Assembly: GCA_900315665.1 (NCBI GenBank)
Contig: OMZX01000010.1
Coordinates: forward strand, 1 to 35,415
DNA length: 35,415 bases
Direction of reading: 5' to 3'
DNA from: an uncultured Eubacteriales bacterium
GTDB lineage: Bacteria; Bacillota; Clostridia; Lachnospirales; Lachnospiraceae
Shown here: positions 26,533 to 35,415 of the stretch, piece after piece
Position numbering within the stretch: the stretch's first letter is position 1
Layout: every line of letters starts with the position of its first letter
Notes under the pieces: model-generated
What the model saw: the letters and a program-made list of their open reading frames with translations, nothing else
Database searches by the model: none
Told to the model about the DNA's origin: nothing
Position numbers and translations under genes: made by a program

Positions 26533-28722
26533 TTACCCCTGGCTACGCTCAATATCGATCACGCCGTCAATCTTCCGAAGCTTCGCCACAATCTTTGCAA
26601 GCTCACTCTTGTTATGAATATTGAAGGAGACAGCAATCGTCGCCTTTCCGTTCTTTCCGACACGCGACTGCACACTCTGAATATCGATATTCGCATCCGT
26701 CAGCGTCTTCGACACATCCACGAGAAGTCCCACACGATTCGTCGTGAAAATATCAAGCTCCGTAAAGAAGGTCTCGCCCTCGCTGTCCTTCTGCCATTCT
26801 GCCTCGATGAGACGGTCCTTCTCCTCCTCCGGGAGGTCCATGATGTTAATGCAGTCGGTCCGGTGAATCGTGATGCCACGGCCACGCGTGACGAAGCCGA
26901 CGATCTCATCACCCGGTACCGGTGAACAGCACTTCGCATAGCGGACAGCAAGATCATGGATGCCCTTCACGACGATACCGGACTTTGACTTCCGGATCAC
27001 CTCGGGCTTCTTCTGAAGATCCTCGATGTTCTTGAGGACGTCCTCGTCGGAAACATTAGCCTGAAGGTCCTTGTTATGCATCTCGATCAGCTTCGCGATG
27101 ACCTGCGACTCCTTGATACCGCCACGACCGACAGATGCGACAATCGAATCCCAGTCCTGATAGCTGTAGCGCCGGATCACAGCCTCGACATACTCCGGCT
27201 TCGTGAGCTCGCCCATGCTGTAGCCTTTAGACTTCGCATAGTTTGCAAGCATTTCCTTGCCGCGCTCGAGATTCTCATCCTTCTGCGCGTGCTTAAACCA
27301 CTGGGTGATCTTGTTCTTCGCCTGGGTTGACTTACAGAGCTTCAGCCAGTCACGGCTCGGACCATGGGAGTTCTGGGACGTGATAATGTCTACACGATCG
27401 CCATTCTGCAGCTGATAGCTGACCGGCACGAGCTTGCCATTGACCTTCGCTCCGACCATCTTGTTACCGACTGCTGAGTGAATCGCATATGCAAAGTCGA
27501 TCGTACAGGAGCCGGCCGGCAGATTCTTCACATCACCGCTCGGCGTAAAGCAGTAAACATTCTCATTAAAGAGATTAAGGTCGGACTTAACGAGATTCAG
27601 GAATTCCTTCGAATCATTCTCATCCTTCTGCCACTCGAGGATCTCGTGCAGCCAGTTCATCTTCTCGATTTCAGCCTCGGACGCCTTCTCCTGCGAGCCG
27701 CCCTGCTCCTTATATTTCCAGTGGGCCGCAATACCGTATTCAGCAATCCGGTGCATCTCAAAGGTACGAATCTGAATTTCAAACGGAATACCGTCCTTGC
27801 CCATGACCGTCGTATGAAGCGACTGATACATGTTCGGCTTCGGCATCGCGATATAATCCTTGAAGCGGCCTGGAATCGGCGTATACATCTTATGGATGAC
27901 ACCGAGCGCCGCATAGCAGTCCTTCACAGAATTTACGATGATACGGATGGCAAAAAGATCATAGATCTGATCAATCGTCTTGTTCTGATTGACCATCTTA
28001 CGGTAAATGGAAAAGAAATGCTTCGCACGGCCATTGATCTCACCCTCGATGCCGGACTCCTCCATCCCCTTCTTTACCTCATCGATAATGGCCTGAATCC
28101 GGGCCTCCCGCTCTTCACGGCGAAGGGAAACCTTCTTCGCAATATCATAGTAGACATCCGGTTCAAGGTACTTTAAGGAGAGATCATCCATCTCGACCTT
28201 GATCTTACTAATACCGAGACGCTCTGCAAGAGGAGAATAAATCTCAAGCGACTCTCTTGCCTTTTCCTTCTGCTTTTCCGGTGTCTGATATTCGAGTGTA
28301 CGGAGGTTATGCAGGCGATCGGCAAGCTTAATGATGATGACCCGGATATCCTTCGCCATCGAGACGAACATCTTCCGGAGATTCTCCGCCTGCATCTCGA
28401 CCTTGTCGGAATTCAGATTCAGCTGTGTCAGCTTGGTGACGCCATCGACAAGAAGCGCAACAAGAAGTCCCGCTGCAATCGTCTCCTTATCCATCTCGAG
28501 ATCCGCCAGGATGATGGCGACACAAAGCGGATGGATGATGTACGGCTCACCCGATTTTCTCTTCTGATTCTTATGCTGCTCCGCCGCTACCCTATAAGCC
28601 TTCTCGATCATCGAAAGGTCATCCGATGGATGATAACGCTTGATCGTTTCAATCAGATCCTTATATAGTGCCTCAGGAGGCGTATTGTCCGCCGGTCTCT
28701 CGAGCGTAACTTCCTGTGCCAT
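26533..28722 (-). CDS. relA: RelA/SpoT (p)ppGpp synthetase with deleted hydrolase motif
   Basis: Stringent-response alarmone enzyme of 729 residues. It has an HD-type hydrolase region (about 40-180), the synthetase domain (YDLFAIRIIV, GRFKDYIAMPKPN, YQSLHTT, EIQIRT), a TGS domain (YCFTPSGDVKNLPAG), a conserved-cysteine region (YAKCCSPVPGD) and a C-terminal ACT domain. Oddly, TIAAGLL (81-87) runs straight into VALLVDGVTKL; relatives have about 21 residues here carrying HDxxED. The other metal ligands His64 and Asp135 and the nearby Asn139 remain. The frame is uninterrupted. Synthesis should be intact, and hydrolysis is predicted lost. GAGG precedes the ATG; a strong promoter lies at 28827-28855. 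Confidence 0.93.
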   Translation of the reverse strand: MAQEVTLERPADNTPPEALYKDLIETIKRYHPSDDLSMIEKAYRVAAEQHKNQKRKSGEPYIIHPLCVAIILADLEMDKETIAAGLLVALLVDGVTKLTQLNLNSDKVEMQAENLRKMFVSMAKDIRVIIIKLADRLHNLRTLEYQTPEKQKEKARESLEIYSPLAERLGISKIKVEMDDLSLKYLEPDVYYDIAKKVSLRREEREARIQAIIDEVKKGMEESGIEGEINGRAKHFFSIYRKMVNQNKTIDQIYDLFAIRIIVNSVKDCYAALGVIHKMYTPIPGRFKDYIAMPKPNMYQSLHTTVMGKDGIPFEIQIRTFEMHRIAEYGIAAHWKYKEQGGSQEKASEAEIEKMNWLHEILEWQKDENDSKEFLNLVKSDLNLFNENVYCFTPSGDVKNLPAGSCTIDFAYAIHSAVGNKMVGAKVNGKLVPVSYQLQNGDRVDIITSQNSHGPSRDWLKLCKSTQAKNKITQWFKHAQKDENLERGKEMLANYAKSKGYSMGELTKPEYVEAVIRRYSYQDWDSIVASVGRGGIKESQVIAKLIEMHNKDLQANVSDEDVLKNIEDLQKKPEVIRKSKSGIVVKGIHDLAVRYAKCCSPVPGDEIVGFVTRGRGITIHRTDCINIMDLPEEEKDRLIEAEWQKDSEGETFFTELDIFTTNRVGLLVDVSKTLTDANIDIQSVQSRVGKNGKATIAVSFNIHNKSELAKIVAKLRKIDGVIDIERSQG

Positions 28723-30569: not shown

Positions 30570-31124
30570 TTATTTATGATATTTCGCCGCATAGGTCTGA
30601 ATCGCCGCGACGGTTTTACCATCTGTCATCTTACCTTCGTAGATCAGCTGCTGCAGATCTTCGAGCTTCCAGGCTTCGACACCGAGCTCCTCATCCTCAT
30701 CCCAGTGCATCTGACCCTTTTCAAGGTCCTTCGCTAGATAGATACCGATCTTTTCATCCAGAAATGCAACGGTCGTGTTCACATATAAAAGAAATTCCAG
30801 ATGTTCACACTTGAAGCCTGTTTCCTCCTCAAGCTCACGCATCGCACAGATCTCAAAGGCTTCATCCTCAGAATCTCTCTTCCCGGCAGGAATCTCCAGC
30901 GTATAACGATCCAGTGCATGCCGGAACTGCCGCACCATAAGGATCCTGCCATCCTTCAAAACCGGAAGCACTGCTGCTGCACCCATGTGATGGATAAAAT
31001 CCCAATGTGTCTTGTGTCCGCCGACATCCACATAGTCATCATAAACCGTCAGCACGACACCCTGATACGCAAGCTTCCGCTCGATCAGCTTCACCGGCTT
31101 CTCCGCATTTTCAGCATTCAGCAT
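30570..31124 (-). CDS. Nudix hydrolase, ADP-ribose pyrophosphatase type
   Basis: Predicted to hydrolyse ADP-ribose or related nucleoside diphosphate sugars. The 184-residue product has the ADPRase-like layout: HWDFIHHMGAAAVLPVL, LMVRQFRHALDRYTLEIPAG, then the Nudix box to about residue 104 (RELEEETGF core intact). The gap from the box Gly to the first Glu has six residues rather than five, a small deviation. The start is ATG 31124, 6 nt after GGAGG; the GTG at 31130 would be inside that spacing. It is the first gene of the nudix-apt unit. Confidence 0.9.
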   Translation of the reverse strand: MLNAENAEKPVKLIERKLAYQGVVLTVYDDYVDVGGHKTHWDFIHHMGAAAVLPVLKDGRILMVRQFRHALDRYTLEIPAGKRDSEDEAFEICAMRELEEETGFKCEHLEFLLYVNTTVAFLDEKIGIYLAKDLEKGQMHWDEDEELGVEAWKLEDLQQLIYEGKMTDGKTVAAIQTYAAKYHK

Positions 31125-31164
31125 ACTCACCCTCCAGCACGTGCGATTTCCTCACACGTATTGA

Positions 31165-32764: not shown

Positions 32765-33625
32765 TTATACAACTTTATATTGATTGTACTGCGCTGTCAA
32801 GTACCTACAATCATCCAAATATCGATCCGGTGTTGAATTCTCGAGTGTACCGACGATATATGGCTTCCATTTGGATACCTGCCGCATGAGTTCCTGGTAA
32901 TTGAAAAAGCCCTCGCCCGGATGACGGTATACCTGCTTCTGTCCCTCAAACACAGCGTCCTTAAGGTGCAGCGTCGTGATTCGGTTGCCATAGCGTTCAA
33001 ATGCCTCCCTGATGATCGCTGCCTGCTTCTCGGGAGACGTCGATGCCTCCGGTGTAATAAGATTGACACCATCCAGGATGACATCAAAATTCGGTGAATC
33101 AATATCGTGCAGAAAACGGTCCATCATTGCAGGAGAATATAAAGTATGGTCGAATACGCTCTCTACGCCGACCATAACACCAAGCTTCTCCGCTGCATCC
33201 CGGATTCGCTTGAAGCTGTCAAGAACGCGCTGATAATTTTCCTCCGTCCTCGTCTCCGGTACGACCTTCATGTCCGGATCGGCCCGTCCTGTTTCCGTGC
33301 CGACCATGTCAGCCCCGATTCTTTTCGCATACTTAAGATGCTCGATGAAACGGTCTACCGCGAGAAGACGCTTTTCCTCATCGGGGTTCGCAGGATTGAT
33401 GTAGCAGCCTAGAACCGAGACATGGATGTTTCTTTTTGCAAGTTCTTCACCGACATAATCTCCGAGACCGGCACTGTAATGTCCAACCGAAGTATCAACA
33501 TCCGAAAAGCTTTTCGACATCGCAAGCTGCACATAATGAATGTGCTGTGCCTCAATCGCATCCAGCACCTCTGTGATCGTTCCCTTTTTTACTGCGTCAT
33601 GCACACGCATTCCAAATTGAATCAT
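32765..33625 (-). CDS. sugar phosphate isomerase/epimerase (TIM barrel)
   Basis: Xylose-isomerase-like TIM-barrel protein of 286 residues. Likely metal-binding residues are in VGVESV (Glu), VILDGVNL (Asp), TTLHLKD (His) and VGTLENS (Glu), the standard arrangement of the family, so it should be an active isomerase or epimerase. The substrate is unknown. Its ATG overlaps the AraC-regulator stop (ATGA, 33622-33625), implying coupled expression. With the GH105-type gene upstream, a role in plant-polysaccharide sugar metabolism is plausible. Confidence 0.87.
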   Translation of the reverse strand: MIQFGMRVHDAVKKGTITEVLDAIEAQHIHYVQLAMSKSFSDVDTSVGHYSAGLGDYVGEELAKRNIHVSVLGCYINPANPDEEKRLLAVDRFIEHLKYAKRIGADMVGTETGRADPDMKVVPETRTEENYQRVLDSFKRIRDAAEKLGVMVGVESVFDHTLYSPAMMDRFLHDIDSPNFDVILDGVNLITPEASTSPEKQAAIIREAFERYGNRITTLHLKDAVFEGQKQVYRHPGEGFFNYQELMRQVSKWKPYIVGTLENSTPDRYLDDCRYLTAQYNQYKVV

Positions 33626-34572
33626 ATTTTCCCCAATCCCTTCCGGTATCGCCCCGGCGTCGAGCCGGTCGTCTGCTTAAAGACCTTTTCAAAATATGTG
33701 ATGTTTCCGAAGCCCAGCGAGCTTGAAATATCGGTAATCGGCATATCCGACTCCCGGAGAAGCTTCTGCGCCTTTCTGACCCGTAAAAATGTCACATATT
33801 CAATAACAGAGAAGCCGGTTACGCTTCGGAAAACCCGTGTCAGATAAGACTTCGACATATAAAAATGCTCTGCCACCTGCTCAAGCGTCACATTTTCATC
33901 CATATGCTCCTGGAGATACAGTGCGATCTCATGCACCTTTTTATGGATACCGGTCGTGACAACCATCCCTTGATCCGCCGAGTCAACCAGATTCTGACGA
34001 TTTACTTCTTCCTTCCGCGCCCGCGCATAGATACCGGCAAGCTCAACGGCCTGAAGATACAGGAAGGAATTGACTGATTCAATGTCCCCACTCCCGCGTA
34101 GTGAGCCCTGGCAAGCATCCTTGAAGGCCGTGATGATCGACATAATGAGCGCCCAGTCTTCATCCGAGAAGCGGACAATGCCTCCATACGTGCTCCCGAA
34201 CCAGTCGAAGCCATGCAGGCCAAGTGCACGAAACAGCCCGTCAAAAACCGACCGATCCAGATGAATGATGAAATTATGATGATCAGGGGGTGCGCCAGGC
34301 ACGATGGACGTACGATGGACCAGATCATGATCCACCATCGCACAGCTATGTGCCGTCAGATGATAGGTTTCCTTGTCGACAAAGAGCAGTCTCTGTCCCG
34401 AAAGAATAAAATGCACCTCGATATCCTCATGAAAATGCTTCGAGCGCATGATGAAGTCACGATGCCGGACCGCTTCCGTCACCCGAAGCCCCGGGATTCG
34501 TTTTTCAAACACCAGCTCCAGTCGTGAGTTATGTATATCCTTATTTTCGGTAAGTTGTTGCCCCTCTGCCAT
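33622..34572 (-). CDS. AraC-family transcriptional regulator
   Basis: DNA-binding regulator of 316 residues. An N-terminal cupin-like ligand domain (about 25-110; HFHEDIEVHFILSG) is followed by a helical linker. Two C-terminal helix-turn-helix motifs begin at about 211, with VTLEQVAEHFYMSKSYLTRVF and then the signature ITDISSSLGFGNITYFEKVFK. GAGG precedes the ATG. It is translationally coupled to the isomerase and probably controls the local carbohydrate genes in response to a sugar; the ligand is unknown. Confidence 0.93.
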   Translation of the reverse strand: MAEGQQLTENKDIHNSRLELVFEKRIPGLRVTEAVRHRDFIMRSKHFHEDIEVHFILSGQRLLFVDKETYHLTAHSCAMVDHDLVHRTSIVPGAPPDHHNFIIHLDRSVFDGLFRALGLHGFDWFGSTYGGIVRFSDEDWALIMSIITAFKDACQGSLRGSGDIESVNSFLYLQAVELAGIYARARKEEVNRQNLVDSADQGMVVTTGIHKKVHEIALYLQEHMDENVTLEQVAEHFYMSKSYLTRVFRSVTGFSVIEYVTFLRVRKAQKLLRESDMPITDISSSLGFGNITYFEKVFKQTTGSTPGRYRKGLGKI

Positions 34573-34633: not shown

Positions 34634-35415
34634 TTACCGTAACATTTCCGTGTAAGCAAGAAGCAGCGGACCAACACCTTTGGCGTCATTGTCTACCACC
34701 GGCTCAGATAGATAATACTCTACCGATCCATCACGGTGCTTTTTACCGCCCAGGCCACCCACGAGACAGATACCGGTCACGGCCTTTTCTCCGGCTTCGC
34801 GATACCAATCCGGCAGGAGCTTTAGACGCGCCGCCTTAAGCCAGGCTGCAGCAATCAGCGCTGTACCCGATGTCTCAAGATAATTTCCCGGAACGTTTGG
34901 CAGTGCGATCAGCTGATAGAACAGACCACTTGCATCCTGATACCGGACCAGTGCTTCAGAGAGCTCGTGAAGCATTCTCGTCAGGTGTTCTCTTCCTTCA
35001 TCGATGTATTTTCCATGATCTCCAGGACATCAACGAGTCCAAGGATGAACCAGCCTTCGGCCCGCAGCCAGAAGTTCGGACTGCAGCCGGTCTCCGGATC
35101 TGCCCAGTACATCTTCCTTGATTCATCATAGCCGTGATAATATAACCCGCTAACAGGATCCCGCATGAACCGCTCGACATTTTCGATCTGTGTCACCGCA
35201 TCCGGACAGCTCTCACCATCCCGGAAGCGTCTCTCGTACTCCATGTAGAAGGGCTGTGCCATATAGATACCATCCAGCCAGATCTGGTCGGGGTAGATCT
35301 TTTTATGCCAGAAATTGCCGGATTTTGTCCTCGGCATATCCCGTAGCTGCATGCGTACGAGGTCCATTGCCTTCCGGTATTTCTCCTTGCCTGTCTCATC
35401 GTACAGGGCAAAGAG
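34634..35415 (-). pseudogene. GH105-type unsaturated rhamnogalacturonyl hydrolase, frameshifted and 5' truncated by window edge
   Basis: Family GH105 enzymes remove unsaturated uronic acids from pectin-lyase products in the cytosol. The 5' part (to 34981) reads KIYPDQIWLDGIYMAQPFY, with the probable catalytic Asp, and NFWLRAEGWFILGLVDVLEIM. The rest lies in another frame (LTRMLHELSEALVRYQDASG, then NYLETSGTALIAAAW and KGVGPLLLAYTEML to the stop at 34634). Adding one A to the A4 run (35009-35012, minus strand) would restore a continuous family-like sequence, VLEIMEKYIDEGREHLTRM. Either a true frameshift or a sequencing error is possible. The 5' end lies outside the window. Confidence 0.82.

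Follow-up and report, generated by a model that had tools for sequence, protein, structure and literature searches.

A Lachnospiraceae Rel sequence without the HDxxED segment: a probable in-frame deletion and its predicted consequences

Rel enzymes with and without a hydrolase motif

Firmicutes whose only Rel is a bifunctional one are taken to rely on the hydrolase of that enzyme. The motif HDxxED of the hydrolase domain is named in PMC4154780 and PMC8012599. A hydrolase-inactive B. subtilis Rel, H77A/D78A, has been reported to raise alarmone levels (PMC7098656), and the HD domain has been described as a switch acting on the synthetase (PMC8012599). In the RelA[hS] proteins of beta- and gamma-proteobacteria, HDxxED has been lost while the HD shell and the synthetase are kept (PMC3153485, PMC8012599). 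Their inactive HD domain has diverged, strongly so according to PMC3153485, their H-loop is extended and SpoT serves as the hydrolase; their synthetase carries an EXDD-type motif, the meaning of the RFKD and EXDD motifs being taken here from PMC4154780. Small alarmone hydrolases (SAHs), among them MESH1, RelH, PaSAH, XccSAH and Lmo0812, have been shown elsewhere to hydrolyse (p)ppGpp and (p)ppApp, and one of them NADPH as well (PMC9765508, PMC10434055), while NahA of B. subtilis converts (p)ppGpp to pGpp. A search of the open-access literature, at the level of titles and abstract openings of the papers listed, returned no natural Firmicute Rel without HDxxED.

The DNA considered here, termed the window, runs from base 1 to base 35,415 of a scaffold of 40,066 bases in a Lachnospiraceae draft genome (G000; 2.45 Mb in 121 contigs, rated 97.6% complete). 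It contains no N, and a 43-N gap starts at the next base. A first-pass annotation had claimed that its rel gene (Table 1) is intact in frame and lacks about 21 residues containing HDxxED. The frame is indeed uninterrupted and encodes 729 aa, reading KETIAAGLLVALLVDGVTKL around the junction in the translation. An alignment with the Rels of 29 relatives (L002-L030) puts the loss at exactly 21 residues: the segment, beginning HD..EDT, is present in 29/29 and absent here, 63 nt being missing between L87 (codon at 28464-28462) and V88 (28461-28459).

Table 1. Positions of the features discussed, in window coordinates unless a contig is named
Feature	Position	Strand	Basis
rel, long RSH protein with 21-codon internal in-frame deletion	26533..28722	-	Pfam and TIGR00691, E = 8.1e-223
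Deletion junction, codon 87 (L) / codon 88 (V)	28461..28462	-	alignment to 29 relatives
HD hydrolase domain, N-terminal part, residues 37-87, with H64	28462..28614	-	HD_4 profile 1-54, here and across the junction
HD hydrolase domain, C-terminal part, residues 88-171, with D135 and N139	28210..28461	-	HD_4 profile 67-155
Synthetase domain RelA_SpoT with GRFKDY (RFKD-type) motif	27700..28032	-	profile search; motif from translation
TGS domain, residues 389-448	27379..27558	-	Pfam
AH/RIS region, residues 468-630	26833..27321	-	Pfam AH_RIS
ACT_4 domain, residues 650-726	26545..26775	-	Pfam
8-bp repeat copy in ALLV codons, CTTCTTGT on coding strand	28448..28455	-	sequence read
8-bp repeat copy across junction	28460..28467	-	sequence read
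NUDIX gene	30570-31130		
HTH-HD protein, 301 aa	C36 1308-2213 (= L033:1123-2028)	+	sole other HD_4-like match in genome

Four residues of the HD domain, H, D, E and D, have gone with the segment. We take these to be H77, D78, E81 and D82 in RelSeq numbering, lost together with 17 further residues; going by work on RelSeq, they would supply the hydrolase with two of its metal ligands and with its two catalytic acids. The residues that had been claimed as retained, H64, D135 and N139, are all present and stand in invariant columns of the alignment (A1). The window Rel departs from the other 29 Rels at seven of the 229 columns that are invariant among them, six lying in the gap and the seventh being the conservative change L194I; judged by this alignment, it differs far more than Rels usually vary.

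Outside the HD domain the protein resembles Rel[HS] of B. subtilis, S. aureus and S. equisimilis in its domain order, its RFKD-type motif and its match to TIGR00691 over the cut-off, and differs from them in the lack of HDxxED. The synthetase, TGS and ACT domains predicted in the first-pass annotation are recognised by Pfam, as is AH/RIS, giving the order HD-SYNTH-TGS-AH/RIS-ACT of a bifunctional long RSH, with HD_4 in two pieces. The predicted outcome is like that in RelA[hS], yet the route is different, again as had been proposed: the segment has been cut out cleanly and the rest of the HD domain is conserved instead of diverged, the synthetase reads GRFKDY and not an EXDD-type motif, and no second RSH was found. 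Since the closest sequences found in a similarity search, as distinct from a tree with proteobacterial RelA, are the Rels of Oribacterium and other Lachnospiraceae, descent within the beta/gamma-proteobacterial RelA clade seems less likely. The best Rel matches in 60 related genomes range from 46 to 85% identity.

Distribution and breakpoints of the deletion

A profile search of 17 genomes of the genus, G000 included, found the HD_4 match of Rel split in G000 only; in all 16 others it is unsplit and covers profile positions 1-155, as it does by Pfam in the intact relative L003. When a 61-aa peptide spanning the junction was searched against 397 Lachnospiraceae, 387 gave matches, and among the matches listed only that in G000 aligned end to end over 61 residues (E = 3.9e-35, the next being 1.6e-18). 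HDVVEDT is retained in each of seven Rels taken from the ranks that follow (L112-L118). Nine genomes, namely seven of the ten without a match and two weak matchers, were searched again: three hold Rel pieces that start past the deletion region and six lack a full Rel in the assembly. The three other non-matchers (G186, G191 and G382) were left out of this second search. No clade-wide deletion was seen in the 16 other genus genomes or among the listed matches of the 397 Lachnospiraceae, and on these comparisons the deletion is private to G000 among the relatives examined.

The direct repeat reported at the junction is real, two copies of the 8-bp sequence ACAAGAAG lying 4 nt apart. It does not, however, explain the deletion. 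In the rel genes of the 29 relatives the two breakpoints share only 0 or 1 nt of sequence, and a slippage event between direct repeats was rejected on this ground. Instead, the repeat exists because the deletion brings together two LL-V codon blocks.

The age of the deletion can be approached through the HD remnant, which is identical to that of the nearest relative, G007, at 129/135 residues (dN 0.036, dS 1.04). Counting lineage-specific changes where five outgroups agree, the remnant has none in the window Rel and one in G007. The synthetase has seven against one in G007, AH/RIS six against one, and the five counted regions together 15 against four. By these counts the branch leading to the window Rel is long, but not in the HD remnant, and neither dN/dS nor the lineage-specific changes, relative to G007 and the five outgroups, give any sign of relaxed constraint there. 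It follows that the deletion is either very recent or not real, and that nothing shows lineages having lived with the deletion allele. An unconstrained remnant would be expected to gather some 160 nonsynonymous changes over the branch (an estimate from 314 sites and half of dS), as against six residue differences observed. If the remnant is unconstrained, the deletion would have arisen within about the last tenth of the branch, a bound that is only rough because the HD remnant may retain a structural role. The seven synthetase changes leave room for an altered synthetase activity.

Predicted consequences for the enzyme and the state of the assembly

On balance we lean towards a normal bifunctional Oribacterium (Lachnospiraceae) Rel that has been struck by a private, very recent, in-frame deletion of 63 nt, leaving a hydrolase-dead, synthetase-only enzyme. 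The deletion would take out the HDxxED helix and the short helix that follows it in the hydrolase domain. With two metal ligands and both catalytic acids gone, the 3'-pyrophosphohydrolase activity would, from established Rel biochemistry, be lost, and no hydrolase activity should be left provided that the sequence is correct. On the same grounds the synthetase would remain active, with the restraint exerted on it by the HD domain weakened. The removal of alarmones would then fall to other enzymes, for which the best candidate may be a small HD hydrolase fused to an HTH domain and encoded on another contig, C36, whilst the absence of RelP/RelQ-type synthetases would lower the alarmone burden. 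A profile search of the genome, a draft 97.6% complete, gave no second RelA_SpoT match, a situation shared by eight of the 16 other genus genomes; an intact second copy of rel was not found in the assembly either.

AlphaFold2 models built from shallow 10-row alignments were compared for the N-terminus of the window Rel and for an intact control Rel, L041. The mean pLDDT is 66.0 for the window model and 73.6 for the control, and in the window model it falls below 50 at residues 91-124. In the control, residues 81-110 are modelled at pLDDT 84-91, with short helices at 90-93 and 98-104 inside the segment that the window Rel lacks, whereas in the window model the helices flanking the junction (79-86 and 88-99) are almost fused. 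Block 81-90 drops from 91 in L041 to 66, and the blocks over 91-130 reach 38, 39, 42 and 49, against 83, 55, 61 and 71 in the roughly matching L041 blocks 111-150; both models are of moderate quality, and L041 is itself weak (55-61) in part of this stretch. Stand-alone HD hydrolases are missing from the best 50 of the 71 structures that Foldseek matched to the window model (E <= 0.001), and small alarmone synthetases are present among them; in the list for L041, MESH1 and SAH structures appear from rank 29. Our reading of these models is that the HD fold is damaged and the synthetase fold retained. Sequence and model would thus agree on a synthetase with an inactive HD domain.

Of the synthetase-only outcome proposed in the first-pass annotation, the in-frame loss of HDxxED with the other domains kept has stood for the assembled sequence. 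We consider it probable that the deletion is also real in the organism, including the case of a gene in decay. There is nevertheless a substantial, if smaller, chance that the organism's rel is intact, and that the joining of contigs dropped 63 nt or the consensus was drawn from a minority or chimeric molecule. An error of this kind would account for a remnant as conserved as in relatives, with no lineage-specific change, and it would suit a scaffolded assembly which has N gaps of 18-77 nt (six in the stretches examined) and further lesions in a GH88 gene, an ADP-ribosylglycohydrolase gene on C48 and a transporter gene on C16. Against this, a join by overlap is not evident, there being no N and no more than 1 nt shared at the breakpoints; a k-mer assembler would presumably need reads that span the junction; and the loss is exactly in frame, as would be the case by chance one time in three. 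Nor is there a strong genome-wide excess of gaps or splits when 862,379 bases of the assembly (including seven short all-N contigs) are set against 800,000 bases of G008. In-alignment gaps of at least 8 aa number three in each (91 own proteins), or one against none under stricter settings (47 proteins). Split alignments number eight against five (219 queries each way); not all of these are true lesions, one of the eight being an N gap in a feoB-like gene, and the shifts of -58 and -122 include ordinary gaps, which makes the lesions look larger than they are. Around rel itself, seven of ten neighbouring proteins, including greA, apt, NUDIX and CNNM, align with G007 without a gap. The three exceptions are a radical-SAM protein (gaps of 7, 47 and 2 aa, the 47 possibly an insertion in G007), the product of 33622-34572 (gaps of 2, 1 and 1) and GH88.

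A real deletion could also mark a gene on its way out, its N-terminal domain unfolded and neither activity properly regulated, so that the strain would be nearly (p)ppGpp-null or deregulated. The low model confidence extending from the junction to residue 124 is in keeping with such decay, as is the report that alterations in the HD domain of the E. coli RelA protein, one of them the deletion of a single residue, reduce the synthesis of ppGpp and occur among suppressors of spoT loss (PMC4154780). The broken GH88 gene 6 kb away fits gene decay or poor assembly alike. However, the protein has kept its synthetase, TGS, AH/RIS and ACT regions whole and well conserved, and the model retains a synthetase fold that matches small alarmone synthetases; we regard decay as improbable.

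If the synthetase-only reading is true, a natural strain whose sole long Rel lacks HDxxED would show how dependence on the hydrolase gets lost. It would be an early-state replay of the ancient change in proteobacterial RelA, and it would suggest that accessory SAH-like genes are what makes the change possible. Should the deletion turn out to be an artefact, hydrolase-dead Rel calls made from single draft genomes would require read support.

Several genes of the assembly show lesions, those in the GH88 and C48 genes by our own reading. In the GH88-family gene (34634-35367, minus strand) a frameshift near 34980 interrupts the frame; the gene lacks 18 aa relative to the partial copy of G007, the one relative compared, falls only 8 positions short of the Pfam profile and closely precedes the 43-N scaffold gap beyond the window end. 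The ADP-ribosylglycohydrolase gene L197:143-845 (G000:C48) is some 60-110 nt short with a change of frame, and a paralogue on C36 (L076, about 8400) is frameshifted. A conserved ion transporter, L166:2-1280 (G000:C16), 72% identical to that of G008, has a 1-nt frameshift near 878.

A candidate alarmone hydrolase on another contig

The search for another alarmone hydrolase or a second Rel that the first-pass annotation had proposed yielded the HTH-HD protein of C36 and no second Rel. The protein has an HTH_3 domain at residues 13-69, followed by a domain that matches the first part of TIGR00691 (E = 1.6e-11) as well as SpoT, Rel, MESH1 and SAH chains of known structure. It falls below the Pfam cut-off for HD_4 (22.8 against 27.2 bits) and is by this test a divergent member. 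Nevertheless, in an alignment of 22 proteins of this type (its own, 19 from loci L120-L138, a Butyrivibrio plasmid protein and a distant protein of G038), H141, H166, D167, E170, D225 and N229, along with R122 and K222, are invariant, and D171 is present in 21. The HD domain thus matches the small alarmone hydrolases and keeps their catalytic residues, although the protein differs from them in its N-terminal HTH_3 fusion and in lying near restriction-modification genes. Its neighbours encode an AspBHI/Mrr-type endonuclease, Vsr, a MutH-like protein and a cytosine methylase, as well as ADP-ribosylglycohydrolase, macro-domain and AbiEii proteins; judged by gene content, this is a defence-island setting. 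Just upstream lies a serpin-family ORF, L076:260-1213 (G000:C36), whose residues 93-302 match profile positions 153-365 of PF00079 and whose first part has no family match; it is probably truncated or frameshifted.

Neither 60 related genomes, where the best match has E = 2e-11 and 31% identity, nor the 16 other genomes of the genus gave a close relative of the C36 protein, and proteins of its type occur in 37 of the 397 Lachnospiraceae, G000 included (best E <= 1.2e-28). Members of the family are small HD proteins, either fused to an HTH domain or free-standing, that have the full Rel-type catalytic set, and the family is accessory in Lachnospiraceae. A phage or plasmid origin was considered for the C36 protein and rejected. 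The HD part of this protein matches phrog_15275 (unknown function, E 1.6e-21) and phrog_990 (metal-dependent phosphohydrolase, 1.6e-15). Phage records gave 18 matches to the protein, the best listed at 29%, and plasmids 11, the best being a 49% relative on Butyrivibrio pNP243 (L082); viral contigs gave no confirmed match, and those in PADLOC were weak and lay nearly all in the HTH part.

On its sequence, the C36 protein is a candidate back-up alarmone hydrolase if the Rel deletion is real, and it is plausible, though unproven, that a Rel confined to synthesis exists in nature alongside a substitute hydrolase. It is unlikely, in our estimation, that we are looking at a single-Rel Firmicute which has just split its alarmone system, with a deletion making Rel synthetase-only and hydrolysis taken over by a small alarmone hydrolase that is DNA-binding through its HTH fusion, came in by horizontal transfer and sits in a restriction-modification island. 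Co-occurrence was not accepted as proof of compensation, as the C36 type is found in 36 other Lachnospiraceae, none of which, among the matches listed, has an alignment that spans the whole junction peptide, and as extra HD_4 proteins over the cut-off are found in nine of the 16 other genus genomes. By these counts the C36 family is much commoner than the Rel deletion and is not tied to it.

Within the genus, the presence of small synthetases seems to go with that of small hydrolases. Among the eight genomes other than G000 that have no extra RelA_SpoT match, an extra HD_4 protein occurs in G005 only, and all eight genomes with an extra RelA_SpoT over the cut-off also carry an extra HD_4 over the cut-off.
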